Shown here in pieces: positions 13,803 through 26,127 of a stretch of 64,000 bases of DNA. Every line of letters begins with the position of its first letter. The first letter of the stretch is position 1. Made by a program: the position numbers and the translations under genes. Source of the stretch: Actinomycetota bacterium (GTDB taxonomy: Bacteria; Actinomycetota; Actinomycetes; Streptosporangiales; Streptosporangiaceae); assembly GCA_027313705.1 (NCBI GenBank), contig DAHVDE010000050.1:1-64000 (forward strand). Reading direction: 5' to 3'. The notes under the pieces are model-generated. The model searched no databases. It was not told where the DNA came from and saw nothing but the letters and a program-made list of their open reading frames with translations.

Positions 13803-15287
13803 ATGGGAGATTCCGGAGTCGGAGCTCGGACGCGGCGCGCGACCAAGACCTTCGTCTCCGCGTCACAGTCGGCGGCGAAGGCAAGCGCCAACGTCGCCGG
13901 CGGTGCCACCAGGACCGTGCACAAGATCACAGGCGCCTCGGGAGCCGCCAGGACCGGCCTCGCCCACCTCATCGAGCTCACCGCAGGCGGCAGCGTGGGC
14001 GATGGCTTCGTGGCGGTGGCACTGGCAGGCACTTTGTTCTTCAGCGCCTCGGTGACGCAGGCCCGCGGCCGGGTCGCGCTCGCACTGCTCATCACCATGG
14101 CGCCCTTCGCCCTCGTCGCGCCGTTCATCGGCCCCATGCTCGACCGAGTGCAGCACGGCCGCAGGTACTTGCTGATCGGGACCGTGTTTGCCAGGGGGCT
14201 GCTTTGCTGGGGAATGTCAGGCGCGGTACAGCACAATGACGCGGTGACGCTGCTGCCGGCCGCGTTCGGCGTGCTCCTGCTGCAAAAGGCGTACGGCGTC
14301 ACCAGGGCATCAGTCACACCACGATTGCTGCCCGAGGAGATCACGCTAGTCACGGCCAACTCACGGGTCGCGCTGGCCTCGCTGATAGCGACGACGCTCG
14401 GGGTGCCGGTAGCAGCGGGCATAGACGCGATTGCCGGCGGCCATGCGACCGGTGCCGCCTGGGTACTGCGAATCGGCACGGTCGTCTACCTGCTCGCCAT
14501 GGTGCCTGGTTTCCGCATACCTGACGGTGTCGACGAACCGGTCGATGAGGCCGCCGGCAGTCCTGCCGCGCCCGCGAACGGGCAGGTGGCATCGGAGAGC
14601 GGCGAGTCACCGAAGGCGGCCCCCGGCTCGCAAGGCGGCACAGGGGAAGGCGCGGCGAGTGCCAAGCGGAAGGGCTGGCATCTGTTCCCGCAGCCAATCG
14701 GGCCGATCGTTACCGAGGCGATCAAGGCAAACATAACCTTGCGTGCTTATTCAGGCTTTATGATTTTTTTTCTAGCCTTCCTGCTACGCACCGTTCATTT
14801 CGGATCGATCTCTGACAAGCTGGCGCTCACCGAGATGATCGCCGCAGTGGCGATCGGCGGCTTCAGCGGGACCGCGATCGGAGCCGCGCTCAGGTCCAGA
14901 TCCCCTCAGATCGTCGTCTACGCGATGCTGACGTTCTCGGCGATCGTAACCACGCTCTGCGCGGTGTTCTTCGGGCTCTGGGCCGCCATCATCGTCTCCT
15001 TCAGCGCCGCCGTCGGGCAAACCCTGGTCAAGCTCGCGCTCGACTCGATCGTGCAGCGCGAGGTCAGCACCGAGGTAAGGTCTTCGACCTTTGCCGTCTC
15101 AGAGACCCTGCATCAACTGTCCTGGGTCATCGGCGGCCTGCTCGGTCTGTTGCTCTCCCTGACTAACAGCGGAATCACCGGCCTTGCCGTCGCTGCGGCC
15201 GGCCTGACGCTGTCACTGGGCTTGCTCGTCACCACGAGAAGGAACCGGATCCTGCGAATCAGGCGCAAGGACACCGCTGCGGTCTAG
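13803..15287 (+). CDS. MFS transporter
   Basis: A 494-residue protein with about twelve membrane helices and the MFS loop GPMLDRVQHGRRY. It has a long soluble N-terminus (about 50 residues) and a Pro/Gly/Ser-rich central loop (about 245-300) between helices 6 and 7. It is the MFS protein usually located next to DUF3027 and the CSD protein in actinobacteria; substrate unknown. ATG 13803 is chosen; longer in-frame starts lie in the divergent DUF3027 gene. Confidence 0.85.
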   Translation: MGDSGVGARTRRATKTFVSASQSAAKASANVAGGATRTVHKITGASGAARTGLAHLIELTAGGSVGDGFVAVALAGTLFFSASVTQARGRVALALLITMAPFALVAPFIGPMLDRVQHGRRYLLIGTVFARGLLCWGMSGAVQHNDAVTLLPAAFGVLLLQKAYGVTRASVTPRLLPEEITLVTANSRVALASLIATTLGVPVAAGIDAIAGGHATGAAWVLRIGTVVYLLAMVPGFRIPDGVDEPVDEAAGSPAAPANGQVASESGESPKAAPGSQGGTGEGAASAKRKGWHLFPQPIGPIVTEAIKANITLRAYSGFMIFFLAFLLRTVHFGSISDKLALTEMIAAVAIGGFSGTAIGAALRSRSPQIVVYAMLTFSAIVTTLCAVFFGLWAAIIVSFSAAVGQTLVKLALDSIVQREVSTEVRSSTFAVSETLHQLSWVIGGLLGLLLSLTNSGITGLAVAAAGLTLSLGLLVTTRRNRILRIRRKDTAAV

Positions 15288-15316
15288 GCCCAGGCGGGTC
15301 CTGGCCCCCCGGCCGG

Positions 15317-15700
15317 TCAGACGTCTATGTCGTCGGCCACCGCACGCAACAGGGCGGCGATCTTCTTTGAATCCTTGTTGTCTGGGTGCTTGCCGCGGTG
15401 ATAAGTGTTCGACAGGCTGTCGAGCAGCTTGATGAGGTCCTCTACCAGGACCGTCATCTCGTCAGTGCCCTTGCGGCTCGCCTTGGCGACGGTAGGCGGT
15501 GGCTCGAGAACCCGCACCTGAAGCGCCTGGGCGCCGCGGCGACCCTCTGCCACGCCGAACTCGACCCGCTGGCCTGGCCGCAGTACAGTTCCTGCCGTTG
15601 CCAAGGCAGTCGAGTGCACGAAGACCTCACCGCCGTCATCTCGGGTGAGGAAGCCGAATCCCTTGTCGGCGTCATACCACTTGACCTTGCCTGTAGGCAC
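15317..15700 (-). CDS. Cold-shock-domain protein with C-terminal extension
   Basis: A 127-residue protein. Residues 1-70 form a cold-shock domain with RNA-binding motifs GKVKWYDADKGFGFL and GEVFVHSTA; the C-terminus (about 85-127) is a helical extension ending LLRAVADDIDV. GTG 15700 gives exactly the family length of 127, whereas longer forms add unrelated sequence. A single-strand nucleic-acid binding role is expected. It sits next to the MFS and DUF3027 genes as in other actinobacteria. Confidence 0.88.
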   Translation of the reverse strand: MPTGKVKWYDADKGFGFLTRDDGGEVFVHSTALATAGTVLRPGQRVEFGVAEGRRGAQALQVRVLEPPPTVAKASRKGTDEMTVLVEDLIKLLDSLSNTYHRGKHPDNKDSKKIAALLRAVADDIDV

Positions 15701-15897
15701 GTGCAGACCCTTTGCGCGAGAAGAAACTAGTGGGCTACGAACTTGCGGTGTATCCAGGCTATCGGTCATGGCCGGGCGTCCGTCCACGTCCGGATCGGGT
15801 TGTCGCGGCCAGGACTGAATCTGCCGAGCTAGCCGACCGAGTCGCGAACTGAAAGATACCCTGTCCGCACGATCAGAACACCGGGTTATCGCTCTGC

Positions 15898-16971
15898 TCA
15901 GCCGAAGCGGGGCGATAGCCGCCACGGAGGCTGCTTCGGTGGCTTGCGCCGGCTCCGGCGCAGCGCCCACAGAAGGTAGCCGGCACCGGCCAGTGCGGTG
16001 AGCCTGCCGATCCGCTCCGCTCCCAGCCACGCTTCATGACCATAGGACAACAGGGAGCTATGCTGCCCGCCGAAGGCGAGCACGAGCACCGTGCCAAAGA
16101 TCACCAGCAGCACGGGCAGGACAATACCGAGACATTTGTCCTTTACATCCCATTTCTTAGACGGCAGCGCCACCAGTACGCCGATCATCCAGATCGGCGG
16201 GTACACCGCTCCCCCGACGCCGAGCAGCAGAACCGCGAGCATCTCAACGGGATTACCGCGCGCCAGCGTCCACGCGGCTGAGGCGAGCCTTGCCAGCGCA
16301 CCTGCCCAGGCCGCCGCAGCGCCAGCAAGTCGCCGGCGCTGCGGATCTGCCTTCCGCGACGGAGCCTGCAACCTGCCTGGCTGTCCCTGTACCTGGTCTT
16401 GCGGCGCCGCTAGCCTCGGCGCAGATTCTCCCGGTGCGCCGTCTCCCGGTGCGCCGTCGTCAGGTACCGCGTCGTCAGGTACCGCGTCGTCAGGTGCCGC
16501 GTCGTCAGGTGCCGCGTCGTCCGGTGCCGCGAAGAGCGCAGGTTCCCCGAGTTCGACGTCTTTTTCAAGCGGCATCTTTTTCCCGCCTTTGACGACTAGG
16601 CGCGCCGAGGACGGCAATCCGGGGCGGGGGGCAGGCACCTGGACGGGAGGCACCGCAGGAGTAGCCAGGGGCTGAGCTGGTTCTGTCGCGTCCACGGCGG
16701 TTACCGATTCACCTCGACTCTCGCTCTTGTCGACAATCCGCGCTCGCTCGACGATGGCAATCGGATCGCCTAGGTTCGCCAGTACCTTCCTGACCTGCAC
16801 TGAGGTCGCCGTGTGTAGGTCTCCACAATCAGCTTCAATGCGGGTGCGCGTCCGGTCAAGCAGCGACTTCCGTTCTGATAGACCAAGGCGACCGCGGGCA
16901 GCAAGGGACAACCTGTTGAGGAAGTCCCGGATTAGCTGCTCTGTGGGCGGATTCATGCCTAGATCATCCAC
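15898..16971 (-). CDS. Membrane protein with HAAS-like N-terminus and pentapeptide repeats
   Basis: A 357-residue protein of unknown function. Residues 6-80 are a helical region resembling HAAS/DUF1700-type domains (LIRDFLNRLSLAARGRLGLS). A disordered Pro/Ala linker follows, with seven tandem copies of a five-residue unit (APDDA, VPDDA, GAPGD variants, about 147-181). Then come three or four membrane segments (about 235-330) and a basic tail. The Met at residue 6 is an alternative start. It is alone between the CSD gene and groEL. Confidence 0.7.
   Translation of the reverse strand: MDDLGMNPPTEQLIRDFLNRLSLAARGRLGLSERKSLLDRTRTRIEADCGDLHTATSVQVRKVLANLGDPIAIVERARIVDKSESRGESVTAVDATEPAQPLATPAVPPVQVPAPRPGLPSSARLVVKGGKKMPLEKDVELGEPALFAAPDDAAPDDAAPDDAVPDDAVPDDGAPGDGAPGESAPRLAAPQDQVQGQPGRLQAPSRKADPQRRRLAGAAAAWAGALARLASAAWTLARGNPVEMLAVLLLGVGGAVYPPIWMIGVLVALPSKKWDVKDKCLGIVLPVLLVIFGTVLVLAFGGQHSSLLSYGHEAWLGAERIGRLTALAGAGYLLWALRRSRRKPPKQPPWRLSPRFG
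16427..16531 (-). repeat. Seven 15-bp in-frame tandem repeats
   Basis: Seven consecutive 15-bp units starting at 16427, 16442, 16457, 16472, 16487, 16502 and 16517, of the form TCGTCAGGTGCCGCG or TCTCCCGGTGCGCCG. They keep the reading frame of the membrane protein gene and encode the acidic linker repeats. Confidence 0.9.
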
Positions 16972-17080
16972 CTTTACCGACCGTTAAGCGTAGCAACGCG
17001 CACGCGAACGATCAGGAACGCCGGGACGAAGCCGACCGTGGGCCTGCCGATACCAGGCAATAAGTCGAGACCGGATAATA

Positions 17081-17113
17081 AGTGTGGCCCTGGCCTAAGG
17101 CCAGGGCCACACT
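17081..17113. terminator. groEL terminator hairpin
   Basis: A perfect 15-bp inverted repeat, AGTGTGGCCCTGGCC (17081-17095) and its complement (17099-17113), with a TAA loop. It begins 17 bp after the groEL stop codon and is a strong intrinsic terminator of the high-GC type without a U-tract. Confidence 0.85.
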
Positions 17114-17129
17114 CGCAGAGCCGGACTTA

Positions 17130-18797
<1,668 letters not shown>

Positions 18798-18871
18798 TTA
18801 CCTGTGGCCGACCGAGCCGACGCCCGCGACGGACGGCAGATGCCTCGTCGCCCCGATCACGCTACCTGAAG

Positions 18872-18898
18872 TTGTCACTCTCACCCCGAGAGTGCCAA
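18872..18898. promoter_or_regulatory. CIRCE operator, gene-proximal copy
   Basis: TTGTCACTC-N9-GAGTGCCAA at 18872-18898 matches the CIRCE consensus TTAGCACTC-N9-GAGTGCTAA with a few end mismatches. It is the binding site of the heat-shock repressor HrcA, upstream of groEL. Confidence 0.85.
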
Positions 18899-18906
18899 CG
18901 ACCTGT

Positions 18907-18933
18907 TTAGCACTCTCATGCCGAGAGTGCAAC
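18907..18933. promoter_or_regulatory. CIRCE operator, distal copy
   Basis: TTAGCACTC-N9-GAGTGCAAC at 18907-18933 has a perfect left half of the CIRCE element and a near-perfect right half. The two copies are 35 bp apart centre to centre. Confidence 0.9.
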
Positions 18934-19034
18934 CTGACCATGCCCTCACCTCGGCATCCGTAGTCCGCAGGAGCGATCTTTCGGCACTTTGCGTAGTTAG
19001 TCGGCTACCTGGAGGGAGGATCCGCCGACGCGCA

Positions 19035-19072
19035 CAGGCCCGGTACCTGAGGACCCTCAGGTACCGGGCCTG
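19035..19072. terminator. Terminator of the cold-shock gene
   Basis: A perfect 17-bp inverted repeat, 19035-19051 with 19056-19072, containing CCCGGTACCTGAG, and a four-base GACC loop. It lies 20 bp downstream of the cold-shock protein stop codon and insulates the groEL promoter from it. Confidence 0.88.
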
Positions 19073-19091
19073 CCGCGCTAAACCGCGGAAC

Positions 19092-19292
19092 TTATACCAT
19101 GCGGACTGCCTCAGCCTGCGGGCCTCGGTCGCTCTGCGTAATCTCGAATTCGACACGCTGGCCTTCTTCAAGCGTACGGTAACCGTCCGCCTGAATTGCT
19201 GAGAAGTGGACGAAGACGTCCCTACCACCGTCGACCGCGATGAAGCCGTAGCCCTTATCCGCGTTGAACCATTTGACGGTGCCCTGAGCCAT
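19092..19292 (-). CDS. Small cold-shock protein (CspA type)
   Basis: A 66-residue single cold-shock domain with RNP motifs [12 protein letters not shown] and DVFVHFSAI. It binds single-stranded RNA or DNA and acts as an RNA chaperone. It lies just upstream of groEL on the same strand but is separated by a strong terminator and two CIRCE sites, so expression is likely independent. GGGAG upstream of ATG 19292 is the ribosome site. Confidence 0.95.
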
Positions 19293-19903
19293 GAAACAAC
19301 AACTCCCTAACTTTTGCTCGGGCTTCGGGTCACGCCCTTGCTACGCGAAACCCGTTGATCGCGGAACGGGCATGACGTGCCGCGCAAGCTCTGCCTGCCG
19401 TCCTCGCCGTACCGACAGCGACCGGACATTACCCTACATGCTCGCGAGGCGATGCGTAGTGTGATCCGATCCAAGGTCCCGCGACGTCGCAGCGGACCGC
19501 CGGCACGCCTCTTCGAGTACTTCCCGGAGAGTTCTGATGCCATTTAACCCGTTTTCAAGTTGCCAACTTTGGCCGAATGCTGACCGGTGCGGGCATTTGA
19601 CCACGATCACTGCGAACCGGACGGCTGGCCGACCGGCCCGCTACCAGTGACGATAGCACTAAGAGCCGCTCTGACCCTTGCACCGGTAGCCCAGGCCGCA
19701 AGCCTCAGCACTCGCGCGGCGGATCGGCGCAGGCACTACTACGCTGCGCCGGAGAACGCTTTGCGGAAAATCGGCGGCGAGCTCGAGGCAGCTAATCGGG
19801 GAACTTATATCGACTGGCGGCGAGACCCGGCCTACTCATTAGTAATAAAGCGAGCCGGCCAGGCCGCGAGTTCACGGGACCTGGTCGGCTCGGCTACTCA
19901 GCG
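19293..19903. other. 610-bp gap with no recognisable gene
   Basis: Contains the upstream region of the cold-shock gene and the 3' side of the thrC-like gene. The open frames here (for example 19587-19931) have unlike codon use and no family resemblance. I specifically looked for a small MoaD/ThiS-like sulfur carrier ending in Gly-Gly and found none. Confidence 0.6.
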
Positions 19904-21214
19904 TTACCTGTTATCGGGCGAGGACGCATAGAGCGCGGCGAACTCGCGCAGGCTCGGCTTGATCGGCTCTGGCACGACCACCGCTCCTGACACCGCATTC
20001 AGCGTCTTCAGCCCATCGCCCGAGTTGATGAGCACGGTCTCTGCTTCCGGGTCAAGTTCGCCGGCGGCTAGCAGCCTGCGCAGCACCGCGAGAGTCACGC
20101 CGACAGCGGTCTCGCCGAAAATGCCCTCGGTCGCGGCGAGCAGCCTGATGGCATCGACGATCTCGTCGTCGGGAGCGGCCGCAACGCTTCCGCCTGTCCT
20201 GCGCACGACGTCAAGCACGAAGGGGCCGTCGGCGGGGTTGCCGATGGCGAGCGACTTGGCGATCGTGTCAGGCTTGACCGGTTGCACCACGTCCTGCCCG
20301 GCGGCATAGGCAGCAACCACAGGCGCGCAACCGCTGGCCTGCGCGCCGAACACGCGCACTGGCTCTGGCACGTCAACGTCGACCAGTCCCAGCTTCCTGA
20401 CCTCGCGGAACGCTTTGTCAATCTTGACGAGCTGCGCGCCAGAGGCGACAGGTACGACAATCTGGCGCGGCAGTCGCCAGCCGAGGTCCTCGGCGATCTC
20501 GAAGCCGATCGTCTTGGAGCCCTCCGCGTAGTAGGGGCGCACGTTGACGTTGACGAACGCCCAGTCGTCGCGCTCCTCGGCCAGTTCGCAGGCCAGCCGG
20601 TTGACTTCGTCGTAGCCGCCATCGACCTTGATCAGCTTGCATCCGTAAGCGGCGGAGGCGAGTATCTTCTCCGGCTCCAGGTTCGCGGGGACCAGAACCA
20701 CGGCCTCGATCCCGGCCCGTGCCGCCGCCGCGGCGACCGCGTTCGCCAGGTTCCCCGTGGACGGACAGGCGAGCACCTTGTAACCGAGTTCGATCGCGGC
20801 GGCGAGCGCCACGGCGACCACTCGGTCCTTGAATGAGTGGGTCGGATTGGCCCGCTCGTCCTTGACCCATAGCCGCCGCATGCCGAGTTCCCTGGCCAGA
20901 TTGTCGGCCAGCACCAGCGGGGTACACCCTGGCTCCGTGGTCCGCCTCGTGGCTATGTCAGCGGGGACAGGCAGCATGCTCGCATACCGCCAGATATTGC
21001 GCGGCCCGGCAGCGATGGAAGCCCGGCTGACCTGTGGCACGTGATAGCTGACTTCCAGCGGCCCGAAACACTCGGTGCACGCGTGCTGGCCACCGAGTTC
21101 GAATCGGGCACCGCACTCACGGCAGGTCAGCGCAGTAGCGTTGCCGAACCTGGCGCGATCAGGCGAACCAGGCTGGTCGAAGTCGAGCGACGATGTATTA
21201 ACGACAGATGTCAT
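19904..21214 (-). CDS. Threonine-synthase-fold PLP enzyme under SAM riboswitch
   Basis: A 436-residue PLP enzyme. An N-terminal zinc ribbon (C31-x2-C34, C46-x2-C49) precedes the fold-II PLP domain; the Schiff-base lysine is K129 in NPTHSFKD, and the phosphate loop is PSTGNLANA. By sequence it is annotated threonine synthase (O-phosphohomoserine to threonine). The SAM-I riboswitch directly upstream argues for a methionine role: a threonine-synthase homologue that makes homocysteine from O-phosphohomoserine (called MetM) has been reported in Streptomyces, and this could be its orthologue. I chose ATG 21214, with GGAGAGG at 21222-21228; the upstream ATG 21232 lies within the riboswitch stem. Fold is certain; reaction is undecided. 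Confidence 0.85.
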   Translation of the reverse strand: MTSVVNTSSLDFDQPGSPDRARFGNATALTCRECGARFELGGQHACTECFGPLEVSYHVPQVSRASIAAGPRNIWRYASMLPVPADIATRRTTEPGCTPLVLADNLARELGMRRLWVKDERANPTHSFKDRVVAVALAAAIELGYKVLACPSTGNLANAVAAAAARAGIEAVVLVPANLEPEKILASAAYGCKLIKVDGGYDEVNRLACELAEERDDWAFVNVNVRPYYAEGSKTIGFEIAEDLGWRLPRQIVVPVASGAQLVKIDKAFREVRKLGLVDVDVPEPVRVFGAQASGCAPVVAAYAAGQDVVQPVKPDTIAKSLAIGNPADGPFVLDVVRRTGGSVAAAPDDEIVDAIRLLAATEGIFGETAVGVTLAVLRRLLAAGELDPEAETVLINSGDGLKTLNAVSGAVVVPEPIKPSLREFAALYASSPDNR

Positions 21215-21227
21215 AGTGAGGCCTCTC

Positions 21228-21384
21228 CTCATCTGTCCTGCTACCGGTTAGCAGCAGGCCGGAGTTGGCACCAGTCACGCTGTTGCGACAGTGCGGCCTC
21301 ACAGGACCTATGCGGTCAAGTTCGGATCAGCGTGATGGTTGCCGGGGCTTCACAGGGCCGTTCCCTCCACCCCTCTGGATGAGC
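21228..21384 (-). promoter_or_regulatory. SAM-I (S-box) riboswitch
   Basis: The minus strand carries all core S-box elements in order: P1 5' strand GCTCATCC, then GGTGGAGGGA, GTGAAGCCCCGGCAACC, GGTGCCAACTCCGGCC, the P4 arm, and the P1 3' strand GATGAG (21228-21233). The last P1 base touches the GGAGAGG ribosome site (21222-21228), so ligand-stabilised P1 would hinder initiation; this suggests translational control. The left att repeat of the mobile element includes the P1 5' strand. Confidence 0.93.
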
Positions 21385-21389
21385 AATAT
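21370..21389. repeat. attL, 20-bp direct repeat
   Basis: CCCCTCTGGATGAGCAATAT, identical to 33188-33207. On the minus strand it supplies the leader start and the 5' strand of riboswitch P1, so integration restores the aptamer. Confidence 0.9.
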
Positions 21390-21396
21390 TCAGTTA

Positions 21397-21523
21397 GTTG
21401 AGTGAGTACGCACCTTCCCCTGAGCTGCGGAAAGGTTGATACTTGTCAACCACCATACCCCATGAAGCCGCGTTAGATGGAGTGAATTTTCACCGGACAT
21501 ACCGGGGCAGCGACTCACTCAAC
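21397..21523. repeat. Possible integrase arm sites near attL
   Basis: GTTGAGTGAG at 21397-21406 and its inverse CTCACTCAAC at 21514-21523 flank the element's left terminus; a similar TTTGAGTGA occurs at 33109-33117 near the right end. Between them is the dyad GGTTGA-TACTTG-TCAACC (21434-21451), which looks like an operator. Arm-type integrase binding sites are expected in such places, but this is inference. Confidence 0.4.
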
Positions 21524-21559
21524 CAGCGGCCGGTGGAGCGCAGTCCGTACTAGGGGGGC

Positions 21560-21961
21560 ATGGAGAGCGGCAGCGCGCCCTGGACACCGGCATGGTCTAG
21601 GCCGTGCCGTCGCGAGCCGAGACTCGCCGTCATCGTGAGGTACTGGCACGAGCGCGGCGACCCCTTCCCGCTTGACGACGACGACCTCCGCTCGCCGCAC
21701 TGCTTCGGCTGCTGCCGCCTGGTCCCGGCCAAGCTGTACGATCCGGCCGACGCCCCGGCCGCGCGGTGGGACAAGTCCTCGGCCTGCCTGGACCGCGCGC
21801 ACCTCGTGGACAGGTGCCGGGGCGGGCTCGACGGGCCGCAGAACCTGGTACCGCTGTGCCTGCGCTGCCACCGGGTGATGCCCATGTTCACGGACGGCCA
21901 GGCGGCGATTGGCTGGGTCATGCTCGGCGGTTACCGGCAGCTCGCAGGCAGCGATGTCTGA
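21560..21961 (+). CDS. HNH-type nuclease-like protein
   Basis: A 133-residue protein with the zinc-finger HNH pattern: CFGCC (about 48-52), then DRAHLVDRCRGG, then NLVPLCLRCHRVM. The His-Leu-Val and Asn residues fit the beta-beta-alpha metal site of HNH nucleases. ATG 21560 follows a G-rich ribosome site. It is the first gene of the element's left operon. HNH proteins often accompany phage packaging genes; none is present here, so its role (nicking, defence or packaging) is unknown. Confidence 0.7.
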   Translation: MESGSAPWTPAWSRPCRREPRLAVIVRYWHERGDPFPLDDDDLRSPHCFGCCRLVPAKLYDPADAPAARWDKSSACLDRAHLVDRCRGGLDGPQNLVPLCLRCHRVMPMFTDGQAAIGWVMLGGYRQLAGSDV

Positions 21962-22307
21962 CGGCTTCCCCGATGCCGCCCGCATCGAGCGATACACGCG
22001 CGGTCAGTGCTGGCTGCTCGCGATGGCGTTGACCGCCCGGACGGGCTGGCCCGCGTTTGAGCGCACCTTTCATTACCCCGGCCTCGGCCAGTATGAGCAC
22101 GCTTACGTGCGCGTACCGGATGGCCGCTGGCTCGATGCCGAAGGCGTGCACCCCGAGACGTTCGCGGACGAGAGCCCGATGAACCTGGACCGCTGGATTC
22201 TGCGTCACGCAATGCTAGGCCAGCCCGGCGGCGACCTCGATATGGGCCGTGCGCTCGCGGACGCCGGGGAGCTGCTTGAGATTACCGGACTGGCCGAGCT
22301 GCGCTGA
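21954..22307 (+). CDS. Unknown protein with Cys/His pattern
   Basis: A 117-residue protein, ATG 21954, overlapping the HNH gene's end by 8 bp. It has a GQCWLLAMALTARTGWP segment near the N-terminus followed by HAYVRVPDGRWLDAEG. The Cys...His-x-V...DG...D spacing is shared with small actinobacterial and phage proteins that may have a papain/transglutaminase-like fold. I do not recognise a named family and assign no activity. Confidence 0.6.
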   Translation: MSDGFPDAARIERYTRGQCWLLAMALTARTGWPAFERTFHYPGLGQYEHAYVRVPDGRWLDAEGVHPETFADESPMNLDRWILRHAMLGQPGGDLDMGRALADAGELLEITGLAELR

Positions 22308-22344
22308 CCGGGCGAGTTCGCCTAACTGCGTATTAGAGACAGAG

Positions 22345-22420
22345 CCGGGGCTGATCACCCCGGAGAGCGCGTGCAGGCGGCCGGGTCTACGGCCTTGGGC
22401 GGTCTACCGGCCGCCTGCAC
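22345..22420. repeat. Two adjacent hairpins before the Rep-like gene
   Basis: CCGGGG/CCCCGG (22345-22350, 22358-22363) is followed by a 14-bp perfect inverted repeat GTGCAGGCGGCCGG (22371-22384) with its complement (22407-22420) around a 22-nt loop containing GTCTA twice. They fill the 130-bp gap before the winged-helix gene. They could be a terminator, an attenuator or an origin structure. Confidence 0.75.
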
Positions 22421-22440
22421 CAGACCGCCCAGGAGTCCGC

Positions 22441-23022
22441 GTGACCAGTTCCGCATCCGGTAGCGACGGCAATTCAAGTAGCGCACGCTGGCCGCTGAAA
22501 AGAGCAATTACGCAGTCCAGCCTTGATGGCATCAGTCGCGCCATTCTCCAGCTCATAGCTGATGAGGTTAACGACAGCCTGACACTGCCTCAGAAATTCT
22601 CGCCGTCTCGCAGCGAGCTAGCGAGTCGCAGCGGCTTCGCCGCCAGCGCGGTAGATGACGCCATAAAGCGACTGGCGTCAGCCGGATGGCTCCGCAATCT
22701 CAATCCGCCGCGCACCAAATCGAGATGGCAGCTCAGCGTTCCCCAGGAGATAGCTACCCCGGCTGGCGGGGTAGTTGCGGTTGAGCCGGACGGGCTGTCT
22801 ACCCCGCCAGCCGGGCAAGCACTACCCCGGCAGACGGGCATGACTACCCCGGCAGGCGGGGTAAGTACCAGCAAGACTAGCCAGGCTATTCAAGTCTCAT
22901 CAGGAGCCGAGGCAGTCAAGCCTGATGAAGCCGAGCAAGATCATGCTGAGCAGCGGCTAGTAATATCAGGTCAAGATAGCCCCGGCCTTGATATACCGGC
23001 TGAGATTAGGATCTACCCGTGA
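22441..23022 (+). CDS. Winged-helix Rep-like protein
   Basis: A 193-residue protein. Residues about 25-95 form a winged helix (TLPQKFSPSRSELASRSGF as helix-turn-helix), similar in layout to phage replication initiators. The middle (about 105-142) is low-complexity and is encoded by iteron-like repeats; the rest is acidic and disordered. GTG 22441 is chosen because AGGAG lies seven bases upstream. The stop overlaps the next start (GTGA). The layout of an N-terminal DNA-binding domain and iterons inside the same gene recalls lambda O, which supports but does not prove a replication role. Confidence 0.65.
   Translation: MTSSASGSDGNSSSARWPLKRAITQSSLDGISRAILQLIADEVNDSLTLPQKFSPSRSELASRSGFAASAVDDAIKRLASAGWLRNLNPPRTKSRWQLSVPQEIATPAGGVVAVEPDGLSTPPAGQALPRQTGMTTPAGGVSTSKTSQAIQVSSGAEAVKPDEAEQDHAEQRLVISGQDSPGLDIPAEIRIYP
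22754..22865 (+). repeat. Iteron-like repeats within the Rep-like gene
   Basis: The 8-mer CTACCCCG starts at 22754, 22799, 22822 and 22844, each followed by a GC-rich partner half such as CGGGGTAG. The last three are contiguous units of 22-23 bp. The first and last copies are near-perfect dyads (CTACCCCG-N5-CGGGGTAG). They encode Thr-Pro-Ala-Gly-Gly-Val type peptides. Confidence 0.85.
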
Positions 23023-23537
23023 GCAGCAAGACAGCCAGGCTCAAGCGCCGCCACGCTGCGCGGCTGCGGCGGATCAAGCGCCTGCGGAAGACGGGCCGCC
23101 TGCCCGTGCACACGCTGACCGAGCGCAAGCGCGCCGAGGCCGTGCGGCTCCGCGACCGTCAGGACCGGCTTAGCCGAGCCAGGCGGGCCAGGCTGGGTGC
23201 AGCGGCGGCTTCCGCTGCTGTTGGCGTCGGCCTCGCAGCAGGGCTGACGGGACTGGCCGTCCCGGCTGCCGCGAGCGCGGCTTACCCGGTCGTAGTGAGC
23301 GCGGTCCCGTACCTGAGCCCTGTCACGTCGCCGTACAGCGTCATGACGCCCGGCCGACATGATGAGCTGCCCCACCCGGAACCGTCCGATCCGACGCTGT
23401 ACGCCGGGGACGCCTCATACGGCGGCACCGCGTCCACATCTGCCGGGCTCGTCGGTCTCCAGCCCTCGGGAGTCCCCCCGCTGGAAGCGCAGCGCTACGG
23501 GACTTGGGCCAACTACAGCCTGCTCAGAGGCGGCTGA
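23019..23537 (+). CDS. Basic protein with one hydrophobic segment
   Basis: A 172-residue protein starting at GTG 23019, overlapping the previous stop by 4 bp. The first 65 residues are strongly basic (Arg/Lys-rich), then a hydrophobic alanine-rich stretch (about 66-90) that could be a membrane or signal segment, then a Pro/Ser-rich tail. I recognise no family. Confidence 0.55.
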   Translation: MSSKTARLKRRHAARLRRIKRLRKTGRLPVHTLTERKRAEAVRLRDRQDRLSRARRARLGAAAASAAVGVGLAAGLTGLAVPAAASAAYPVVVSAVPYLSPVTSPYSVMTPGRHDELPHPEPSDPTLYAGDASYGGTASTSAGLVGLQPSGVPPLEAQRYGTWANYSLLRGG

Positions 23538-24147
23538 GCCCGCCGATCATCCGGGCGCGAGCAACGCCCTGACCCTGGCGGTCTGCGAGCTTGTCGGGAT
23601 CGAGCCGAGGCCGTCCCCGGCGGATGAGCTGTACCTTGCGCTGTCGGCTGATCCGGTTCCGGTGCTCGGTGAGCTGCGCCTGGTCGCGGACCAGCTCTCC
23701 GATGCCAGGGCGATCCTTGCCGAGGCCGGGCAGTACCAGATCACGTCCGGCATGGAGTCTTCGACCTGCCATCTGTGCGGGGCTACGGATCAGCAGCTCG
23801 TCTACAACTGGCCGAAGGCTGGCTTCGCGGATCGGCCGGTCTGCGACGACGACGCCCGGTGCGATGCCCGCGCCGCGCGCGCCTGCCTCGTCCTTAGCGC
23901 GGTGGATGAGGCCAGGACCGTGGTCGCGCGGGCGGAGACAGCCAGGGATGTCTTGCGCAGATGGCAGGCCGAGCAGATGGAGCACCGCGGCCAGGAGATA
24001 GAGCCGCCGGTCACGCCTGATCCGTGGTCGGGGACGCTGCGCCACCCCGGTAACCGGGCTCACCTGCTGCATAACGCGGGCGCGCACCGGATGCTCAGCA
24101 ACGGCGAGCGGCCCTCGCACCTGATCGGAGCGCGGCCAGCCATCTAA
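23359..24147 (+). CDS. Unknown protein with zinc-ribbon motif
   Basis: The convincing protein begins at about 23540 (NALTLAVCELVGIEPRPSP) and ends at TAA 24145-24147. ATG 23359 is the only standard upstream start and would overlap the previous gene by 180 bp; GTG 23662 is an internal option. A STCHLCGA...CDDDARCD cysteine arrangement in the middle suggests a metal-binding finger, followed by a helical region. Function unknown; start uncertain. Confidence 0.5.
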   Translation: MMSCPTRNRPIRRCTPGTPHTAAPRPHLPGSSVSSPRESPRWKRSATGLGPTTACSEAAEPADHPGASNALTLAVCELVGIEPRPSPADELYLALSADPVPVLGELRLVADQLSDARAILAEAGQYQITSGMESSTCHLCGATDQQLVYNWPKAGFADRPVCDDDARCDARAARACLVLSAVDEARTVVARAETARDVLRRWQAEQMEHRGQEIEPPVTPDPWSGTLRHPGNRAHLLHNAGAHRMLSNGERPSHLIGARPAI

Positions 24148-24164
24148 GCCATACGATCGACGGT

Positions 24165-24890
24165 GTGGCGGCCACTGAGGCGTTCTGTCGGCATTGCCGC
24201 GAGCCCATGATCGCTGAGAGGTCAACCCGGCTCTACTGCTCGGAAGCCTGCAAGCAGCGAGCGAAGCGCGTCCGGCGCAAGCAAGAACGCAATCCGCTCG
24301 CGTGCTGGATTTGCGGCAATGATGTCTACGGGCCTGACGGGATCGGCGCCCTGAGCAAGGACGCCCAGGACCGCCTGTTCGCGGCCACGGGCCGTCTGTG
24401 GTCGCCACGGAGATATTGCAGCCCCGAGTGCCGGGCTAAGGGCCGGGCGCGGAACCACGCTTACCGTGTCGCTGAAAAGCGCTCAGGACGCCGTAGCGTG
24501 TCGCGTGGCCCGTCCGGTGCCGTCGTTATCGCGCTCCCGGAGCGGCCCTCTCAGCCTGCTCTTGAGCGCCTTGCGGAGCTGGTGCGGCGGCCGGGGAAGA
24601 ACACGGTCGTCGTCCGGTTCCCGAGGGCTGCCCTGTATGATCCGCTCGGTTCTGACGGCGGCCTGGACCCGGATTTCGATGAGGTCGCCTTCACCGGTTC
24701 GGCGCTGACGGCTCGTGACGGGATGTGGGTGGCGCTCGCGCTGTCCGGCCTCGGCGCTGAGCCTCGCCCGCCTGCCCAGCCGCCGCCGGGCGCCGAGCTG
24801 CCCCCGGTCACGGAGCTGCCGCCTGCCCGGCTGGCGTGGCCCGAGGCAGGCCCGGAGCCTGATCTGTCTTTTGAGTCGTTCCTGCGCTAG
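24165..24890 (+). CDS. Double zinc-ribbon protein
   Basis: A 241-residue protein, GTG 24165. Two cysteine clusters are visible near the N-terminus: FCRHCREP...YCSEACKQR and ACWICGND...YCSPECRAK, each C-x2-C plus C-x3-C, like small DNA- or RNA-binding treble clefs. The middle has a mixed alpha/beta region and the tail is Pro-rich. I do not recognise a named family. Confidence 0.6.
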   Translation: MAATEAFCRHCREPMIAERSTRLYCSEACKQRAKRVRRKQERNPLACWICGNDVYGPDGIGALSKDAQDRLFAATGRLWSPRRYCSPECRAKGRARNHAYRVAEKRSGRRSVSRGPSGAVVIALPERPSQPALERLAELVRRPGKNTVVVRFPRAALYDPLGSDGGLDPDFDEVAFTGSALTARDGMWVALALSGLGAEPRPPAQPPPGAELPPVTELPPARLAWPEAGPEPDLSFESFLR

Positions 24891-24906
24891 CCGCGTTCCG
24901 ATGTAG

Positions 24907-25086
24907 ATGGACGTGAGCACCAGGACCACGACGACCCCCAGGCGCAAGACCAGGACGCCAGCGCCGCCGCCTGACCCGTCGTCAATGTGCCCGGAGTGCG
25001 GCGGCACGCTGGTGCGGCTCAGCGCAGATAGCGCGCCCACCTGTTATTCCTGTGTGATCAGCCGCGCGGGGCTCAACCGGCGGTAG
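24907..25086 (+). CDS. Small zinc-ribbon protein, 59 residues
   Basis: ATG 24907 to TAG 25084-25086. A Thr/Arg/Pro-rich N-terminus is followed by CPECGGTLVRLSADSAPTCY, a four-cysteine zinc ribbon (C-x2-C, C-x2-C). Too short for ordinary gene callers. It may bind nucleic acid or a protein partner; function unknown. Confidence 0.55.
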   Translation: MDVSTRTTTTPRRKTRTPAPPPDPSSMCPECGGTLVRLSADSAPTCYSCVISRAGLNRR

Positions 25087-25173
25087 GCACCTGCCGATCT
25101 GACCGGCGGGCGGCCGGGCTGCTTTCCTCTTGGGATAGGCAACGTCGAGCCCGGCTGCCCGATTGAATGCGGC

Positions 25174-25440
25174 ATGAGCGTCATGGTGTCGGCCGTCAGC
25201 AGTTACGCGAATGTGCTCGGCGGGATGTTCGGGCACGTCGAAATCGAGATGAACCCCGGCCCGCCGGTCACGCTCGCGGACAACTCCACGGTGATGATGT
25301 GCGAGTTCGGCCTGATCGTCACCCAGCCGGGAGCCGAGCCGAACCAGTTCATCCCGTGGGGAAGCGTCCGCCGGATCATCGAAGCACCAGCGCCGCAGGC
25401 ACCGCCGGGCCAGGCCGGGGACGGCCAGCTGCACGACTAA
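25174..25440 (+). CDS. Unknown 88-residue protein
   Basis: ATG 25174. Begins MSVMVSAVSSYANVLGG and contains a beta-rich centre (VEIEMNPGPP, TVMMCEFGLIV, FIPWGSVRRII) reminiscent of a small SH3/PH-like fold, then a Pro/Gly tail. No family recognised. It is in line with the same-strand operon. Confidence 0.5.
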   Translation: MSVMVSAVSSYANVLGGMFGHVEIEMNPGPPVTLADNSTVMMCEFGLIVTQPGAEPNQFIPWGSVRRIIEAPAPQAPPGQAGDGQLHD

Positions 25441-25486
25441 GTGAGCACTTCAGCCGGGCAGGTGAGCACTTGCCGATGTACCGGTC

Positions 25487-25648
25487 GTGGAGCGGTTCGG
25501 GCTGGTCGGCCAGCGGTGCCAGGAGTGCGGCGCGGTGCGTGCCGTGGCCGCTGACCCGTGCCCCGTCTGCGGGCCGGACCTGCCGAGGTGGGCCGCCAGA
25601 CAGCGCAGGTCGCGCTACGCCGAGGGGAGCACAGGATCAGGAGGGTAG
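25487..25648 (+). CDS. Tiny zinc-ribbon protein, 53 residues
   Basis: GTG 25487 to TAG 25646-25648, with RCQECGAVRAVAADPCPVCG, again a four-cysteine ribbon. No clear ribosome site precedes it, and an in-frame stop at 25463-25465 excludes a longer form. Probably real because of the intact motif and operon position, but weakly supported. Confidence 0.4.
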   Translation: MERFGLVGQRCQECGAVRAVAADPCPVCGPDLPRWAARQRRSRYAEGSTGSGG

Positions 25649-25654
25649 CTGCCC

Positions 25655-25822
25655 GTGCAGCCTGATGCGCATGCCGATCCCGCCGGGCTGACCGAGCCGT
25701 TGCGGGTGCCAGGCAAGGACTTCCATGATCAGGTCGGGCTGATGCTCAAGATCGTGGACACGGGCCGCGTGGTCGAGGTCATGCAGCGCGGCAAGGTCCG
25801 CGCCCGGCTGGTGCCCGCATGA
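25655..25822 (+). CDS. Small protein, possible antitoxin-like
   Basis: GTG 25655 to TGA 25820-25822, 55 residues, with GGAGG at 25639-25643. The C-terminal half LKIVDTGRVVEVMQRGKVRARL looks like a beta-strand plus helix of prevent-host-death-type antitoxins, but it is too short to be certain. It overlaps the next start (ATGATG). Confidence 0.4.
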   Translation: MQPDAHADPAGLTEPLRVPGKDFHDQVGLMLKIVDTGRVVEVMQRGKVRARLVPA

Positions 25823-26127
25823 TGGCCGCGCAGATCCCGGTCGGTCTGACCCTGGCGGCGGTCAGCGTCAGCGACCTGCGCGAGCACTGCGCTGACCGGC
25901 TGGCCGAGGCGCGAGGCGGCGCGGTCGTGGTGATCTACGAGACCAGGGGCGAGGTCAGGCCGCTGGGGGTGCTCGTGGCCGTGCCTCCTGAGCTGACCCC
26001 GGTCGTGGAGGCGCTGACTACCGAGATAGCGCAGCGGCGTCATGTGCGCTTCGCGGCCCGCCAGCGGCGGAACGCGGCGGCTGGTGCGATCACCCGCCGC
26101 CTGAGGATGGAGGCAGCAGCAAGTTGA
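25819..26127 (+). CDS. Small Phd/YefM-like protein
   Basis: A 102-residue protein, ATG 25819 (or 25822). VSVSDLREHCADRLAEARGGAVVVIYETRGEVRPLGVLVAVPPE follows the Phd antitoxin pattern: an N-terminal short strand and helix, then 'R-G-x-x-V-L-V'. The C-terminal half is basic. It resembles, in miniature, the preceding 55-residue protein, so the pair may be a duplicated antitoxin-like fold. No toxin is obvious next to it. Confidence 0.45.
   Translation: MMAAQIPVGLTLAAVSVSDLREHCADRLAEARGGAVVVIYETRGEVRPLGVLVAVPPELTPVVEALTTEIAQRRHVRFAARQRRNAAAGAITRRLRMEAAAS

Follow-up and report, generated by a model that had tools for sequence, protein, structure and literature searches.

A SAM-I riboswitch precedes a threonine-synthase-like gene

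The stretch of DNA analyzed in this study, hereafter called the window, is 64,000 nucleotides in length. On its reverse strand, one threonine-synthase-like gene, here called metM (19904..21214), is located directly downstream of one SAM-I (S-box) riboswitch aptamer (21226..21385). On the other side, metM is followed by a 611-bp gap (19293..19903) and by two genes of the same strand, csp (19092..19292), which encodes a 66-aa cold-shock-domain protein, and groEL (17130..18752); by synteny, csp and groEL form the right-hand flank of a metM-(metO)-csp-groEL block.

The aptamer matches Rfam family RF00162 over the full model (positions 1–108) from 21385 to 21226, with a score of 80.2 bits (E = 2.8e-17 for the window), which is above the gathering score of 44.4; it is the single such element detected across the 5.3 Mb genome of the window. 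In the cmscan alignment, the conserved core is intact, and an insertion lengthens one hairpin loop well past the Rfam consensus. The P1 3′ strand GATGAGGA (21233–21226) runs into the Shine–Dalgarno sequence GAGGAGAGG (21230–21222), so that the two overlap within 21222..21233; the spacing between the Shine–Dalgarno sequence and the ATG at 21214 is 7 nt. Owing to this arrangement, SAM binding should directly mask the ribosome-binding site, and the leader layout points to a translational OFF switch that would act through direct P1/Shine–Dalgarno occlusion. Eighteen relatives were inspected: all have GATGRG as the P1 3′ strand, beside a purine-rich stretch, and in 15 of them GGCCTC follows.

The open reading frame (21232–19904, reverse strand) matches PF00291 with 245 bits and TIGR00260 (thrC) with 260 bits, the latter over its cut-off. 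Together with the riboswitch directly upstream, these matches bear out the preliminary description, which had proposed that a threonine-synthase homologue is controlled by a SAM-I riboswitch. The first listed ATG of the frame, at 21232, falls within the P1/Shine–Dalgarno region; for this reason, the ATG at 21214, giving a protein of 436 residues, is the likelier start.

Two further elements were noticed 5′ of the aptamer. Immediately 5′ of it (5′ of 21385 in the window), almost every lineage examined has a block resembling ACAACTGAATAY or ACAACTTCATAT. The window also contains one inverted repeat, GGTTGACAAGTATCAACC, at 21434–21451; it overlaps a TTGACA sequence and is absent from the relatives inspected.

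The protein falls in the MetM clade, apart from operon-type ThrC

MetM of the window is a threonine-synthase-like PLP enzyme of fold type II, as judged from family matches, tree and structure model. It contains an N-terminal CxxC...CxxC segment and the PLP-lysine motif HSFKDR. The AlphaFold model (pLDDT 81) confirms the ThrC fold and nothing beyond it; compared against the PDB, its target-normalized TM-score is about 0.82–0.84 for the best ThrC. Like bona fide ThrC (TIGR00260; PDB 2d1f and 1uim), the protein has the threonine synthase fold and active-site core. Different from bona fide ThrC, however, it belongs to a separate clade: in a tree built from 25 proteins of the window type and 30 ThrC of the operon type, the two types are divided with a support of 100/99, and the window protein groups with the MetO-linked orthologues, as the preliminary description had expected. 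Its identity is 61–82% to the MetM-type proteins and 32–38% to ThrC. At the similarity threshold used, each of the 121 genomes sampled from the order, that of the window included, has exactly one close MetM orthologue. In a plasmid collection searched for Streptomyces MetM, the only matches were from one Nonomuraea and one Halomarina.

The thr operon context is that of ThrC. The genome of the window (118 contigs, 98.9% complete) carries a separate hom-thrC-thrB operon on contig C118, in which thrB, at 167.7 bits, is just short of its cut-off of 168.25. Contig C105 holds a third threonine-synthase paralogue, which is more distant and of PRK08197 type. The window gene is therefore neither the sole copy in the genome nor part of a hom-thrC-thrB operon, and the second thrC that had been anticipated in such an operon is indeed there. 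The expected absence of metX and metB held in part. No metX was found in the genome, where only stray alpha/beta-hydrolase matches of at most 21 bits were seen; a metB-like gene, by contrast, is present on contig C67, where it adjoins a cystathionine beta-synthase gene, which suggests reverse transsulfuration. MetH is present. On contig C59, a Cys/Met-metabolism PLP enzyme is located at the end of one 954-aa open frame with much low-complexity sequence (L025:7792-10656); it is methionine gamma-lyase- or O-succinylhomoserine sulfhydrylase-like and scores under the cut-offs of its best families. With this enzyme and the CBS/CGL pair, other routes to homocysteine are possible.

For Streptomyces albulus, PMC12172450, citing Hasebe et al. 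2024 (Appl Environ Microbiol 90:e01247-24), states that MetM is a homocysteine synthase preceded by a SAM riboswitch and that MetO belongs to a family of carrier proteins. Like that system, the window has a threonine-synthase homologue under an upstream SAM riboswitch, and its orthologues in the order have a metO-like gene directly downstream. As would be expected of a MetM, its protein groups away from operon ThrC, and the canonical acyl-homoserine entry (MetX) was not found in its genome. Owing to this match between the riboswitch and linked-carrier arrangement of the relatives and that reported for S. albulus, the window gene is probably metM, an O-phosphohomoserine-dependent homocysteine synthase of the threonine-synthase superfamily. 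The MetM-like reading of the preliminary description is supported by the separate hom-thrC-thrB operon, the lack of metX, the clade and the carrier-linked orthologues; homocysteine formation itself, which we infer from the published Streptomyces case, is very likely.

Every metM locus scanned carries the SAM-I element. All 19 order relatives scanned have it ahead of metM, as do 20 of 20 loci of the metM-metO set (L035 being scanned twice) and all 19 loci that are without metO or unscored for it. In two metO-less genomes, the element is located ∼750 bp before metM (L115:2157-2246 and L117:2141-2230); in the former, one GNAT-like acetyltransferase frame is present in between. In one relative, a guanidine-II (mini-ykkC) riboswitch match was observed at the end of metM (L123:4221-4276).

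metO is found neither at the locus nor elsewhere in the assembly

In the relatives, the gene order is metM, metO, csp, groEL; in the window, it is metM, the 611-bp gap, csp, groEL. The locus lies on unbroken sequence, with metO cleanly missing at its usual site. A profile search with the MetO/CysO model detected no MetO-like sequence in window positions 14001–26000 at E ≤ 10; in this search, the gap holds no trace of a decayed metO either. The carrier gene, which had been noted as lacking just downstream, is missing from the gap and from the whole assembly as well; the genome holds one carrier of the CysO type only, and the two-gene MetM/MetO arrangement is not present.

All 120 remaining genomes sampled from the order have their best CysO/MetO-type carrier gene on the same strand, 19–300 bp downstream of the metM orthologue, as confirmed by a script; in addition, every one of them shows one or more further CysO/MetO-type carrier matches. 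The linked carriers end in AVAGG, some with a short tail in addition. The window genome and four sampled congeners (the genomes of loci L108–L111, judged from identical carrier coordinates) have kept metM; metO is missing from their assemblies, and each has exactly one CysO-type carrier. A further 41 genomes were compared: the 22 with metM-metO all contain two or more carriers, and 17 of the 19 that are without metO or unscored contain one real carrier, the exceptions being two draft MAGs with no carrier. Two of the genomes counted as one-carrier are G130, which has a weak second match, and G133, in which the carrier gene is split over two contigs; two loci were unscored for downstream metO, owing to a contig end and a failed frame call (L118 and L123). 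The metO-less set includes isolates, namely Trebonia kvetii (L121) and Nakamurella leprariae (L143).

When presence or absence of metO was labelled on the MetM tree, at least six changes were needed, forced by well-supported branches; the root of the tree is unsure, and some of these changes could be gains. For the genus of the window, loss is the simpler reading, since metO is present order-wide. We read the absence of metO as a recurrent loss.

The MetM proteins without linked metO (orphan MetMs) share a mean identity of 71.8% among themselves, compared to 71.5% among the linked ones, and HSFKDR is present in all. The alignment of orphan against linked proteins revealed no substitution common to all orphan lineages; the changes observed are lineage-specific, for example Q243 to D or H, and G371 to V or A in two lineages. 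Being conserved like the linked proteins and having kept the PLP-lysine motif, the orphan MetMs are presumably active.

The remaining carrier is CysO

The single CysO-type carrier of the window genome is located in a mec-cysO-cysM operon on contig C52 (L023:7886-8164). In the carrier tree, the MetO and CysO clades are separated with a support of 100/99, and every lone carrier tested falls in the CysO clade. The lone carrier genes fetched all adjoin cysM, and they adjoin mec too in all but one truncated contig. For 13 genomes with two carriers, the second gene was fetched as well, and in all cases it is the mec-cysM one.

In the clade of the window, CysO often has a short tail past GG (AR, MR, SR, TR, DR or longer), whereas MetO mostly stops at GG. 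Such a tail would need trimming before charging, perhaps by the neighbouring Mec protease.

One MoeZ-type activating protein with ThiF and rhodanese parts is encoded on contig C71. In Mycobacterium tuberculosis, the CysM/CysO/Mec system pairs a PLP enzyme, whose substrate is a phosphorylated amino acid, with a ubiquitin-fold carrier that MoeZ charges and that bears a thiocarboxylate; MoeZR of mycobacteria charges MoaD as well as CysO (PMC3227635). The mec-cysO-cysM operon of the window genome is of the same kind. Different from M. tuberculosis, where CysO serves cysteine only, we propose that CysO of the window genome may serve homocysteine too.

Proposed pathway and its alternatives

In the proposed pathway, the products of hom and thrB would provide O-phospho-L-homoserine, MetM would swap the phosphate for sulfur to give homocysteine, and MetH would methylate homocysteine to methionine. 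When SAM is plentiful, the riboswitch would close the Shine–Dalgarno sequence of metM, leaving the shared precursor for threonine. In most relatives, sulfur would come from MetO, the small thiocarboxylated carrier encoded next door. In S. albulus, according to what Hasebe and colleagues reportedly published in Applied and Environmental Microbiology in 2024, metO lies directly downstream of metM and the MetO thiocarboxylate is the sulfur donor. Different from S. albulus, the window genome has CysO only, with metO absent from both the locus and the assembly. In the genus of the window and several other lineages, where metO appears lost, CysO of the mec-cysO-cysM operon is the most likely replacement; it would be charged by the MoeZ-type enzyme and would, as a single carrier, supply cysteine and methionine synthesis alike.

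Since the lone carriers are of the CysO clade and the orphan MetMs are conserved, we propose that CysO thiocarboxylate feeds MetM; given the homocysteine-forming reaction, this use of CysO is reasonably likely. The whole reading, that the window gene is metM and that CysO, the sole carrier left of its type, serves both cysteine and homocysteine synthesis, is given a probability of about 60%. Protein-thiocarboxylate sulfur is also used for homocysteine in Wolinella, by HcyS/HcyD/HcyF with MetY. Like that system, the proposed pathway would make homocysteine from a carrier-bound sulfur; however, MetY is a PLP enzyme of fold type I that uses O-acetylhomoserine and has its own carrier and protease, whereas the window enzyme is of fold type II with a different substrate.

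The foremost rival to CysO use is that, after metO loss, MetM takes free sulfide or another thiol donor. The chemistry is easy, as for O-acetylserine and O-acetylhomoserine sulfhydrylases, which use free sulfide, and the repeated losses of metO left no visible mark on MetM. The carrier comparison likewise revealed no drift of the lone CysO toward MetO-specific residues; with convergent changes missing from the lone CysO and from the orphan MetMs alike, free sulfide is a real rival. On the other hand, CysO and MetO are close homologues (54–58% identity, with a common IPTILR...AVAGG core), hence docking of CysO would need little change, and the conservation of MetM is not relaxed in the orphans. 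We therefore regard the use of free sulfide as rather unlikely, though worth weighing. Less probable still, metO may be hidden in an unassembled stretch of the 118-contig, 98.9% complete assembly, or its place may be taken by one of two other ThiS-family carriers of the genome, a MoaD-like one (C61) and ThiS (C99); against this, a single CysO-type carrier is likewise all that the four congeners and isolates such as Trebonia kvetii have, the contiguous metM-csp-groEL locus lacks metO cleanly, and the ThiS gene adjoins a thiG-like gene. That the window gene encodes a true second threonine synthase which happens to be SAM-repressed is very improbable: its fold and best sequence families are those of threonine synthase and a Microcystis MetM homologue is described, in a passage of PMC12172450, as making threonine in vitro, but a hom-thrC-thrB operon is already present, the clade is separate from operon ThrC, a sulfur carrier is linked in all 120 other sampled order genomes, and, with no metX found, homocysteine synthesis would be left without an enzyme if the window gene were subtracted.

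Compared with these alternatives, supply of sulfur by CysO is the reading we retain. Its wider form, in which MetO was lost repeatedly in several actinobacterial lineages, CysO and MoeZ, possibly with Mec, supply sulfur to both CysM and MetM, and the SAM-I element on metM alone divides the sulfur flow, seems to us slightly better than an even bet.

Significance

The core of the system, a SAM-riboswitch-controlled MetM, is already published for Streptomyces. What is new here, as read from the genomes, is that metM is kept without metO in the window genome and four congeners, and that this recurs elsewhere; no description of the recurrent metO-less form was found in the open-licence literature searched, which is weak evidence of novelty.

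Many actinobacteria seem to be without the textbook homocysteine enzymes, and the MetM/MetO route explains methionine synthesis there. The route is general in the order of the window, with SAM-I wherever it was looked for, and many metM genes probably carry a threonine synthase annotation. By losing metO independently, several lineages have run a natural experiment on whether protein-thiocarboxylate carriers can stand in for one another across the cysteine and methionine branches; as Trebonia kvetii and Nakamurella leprariae are in culture, such an exchange is testable in them.
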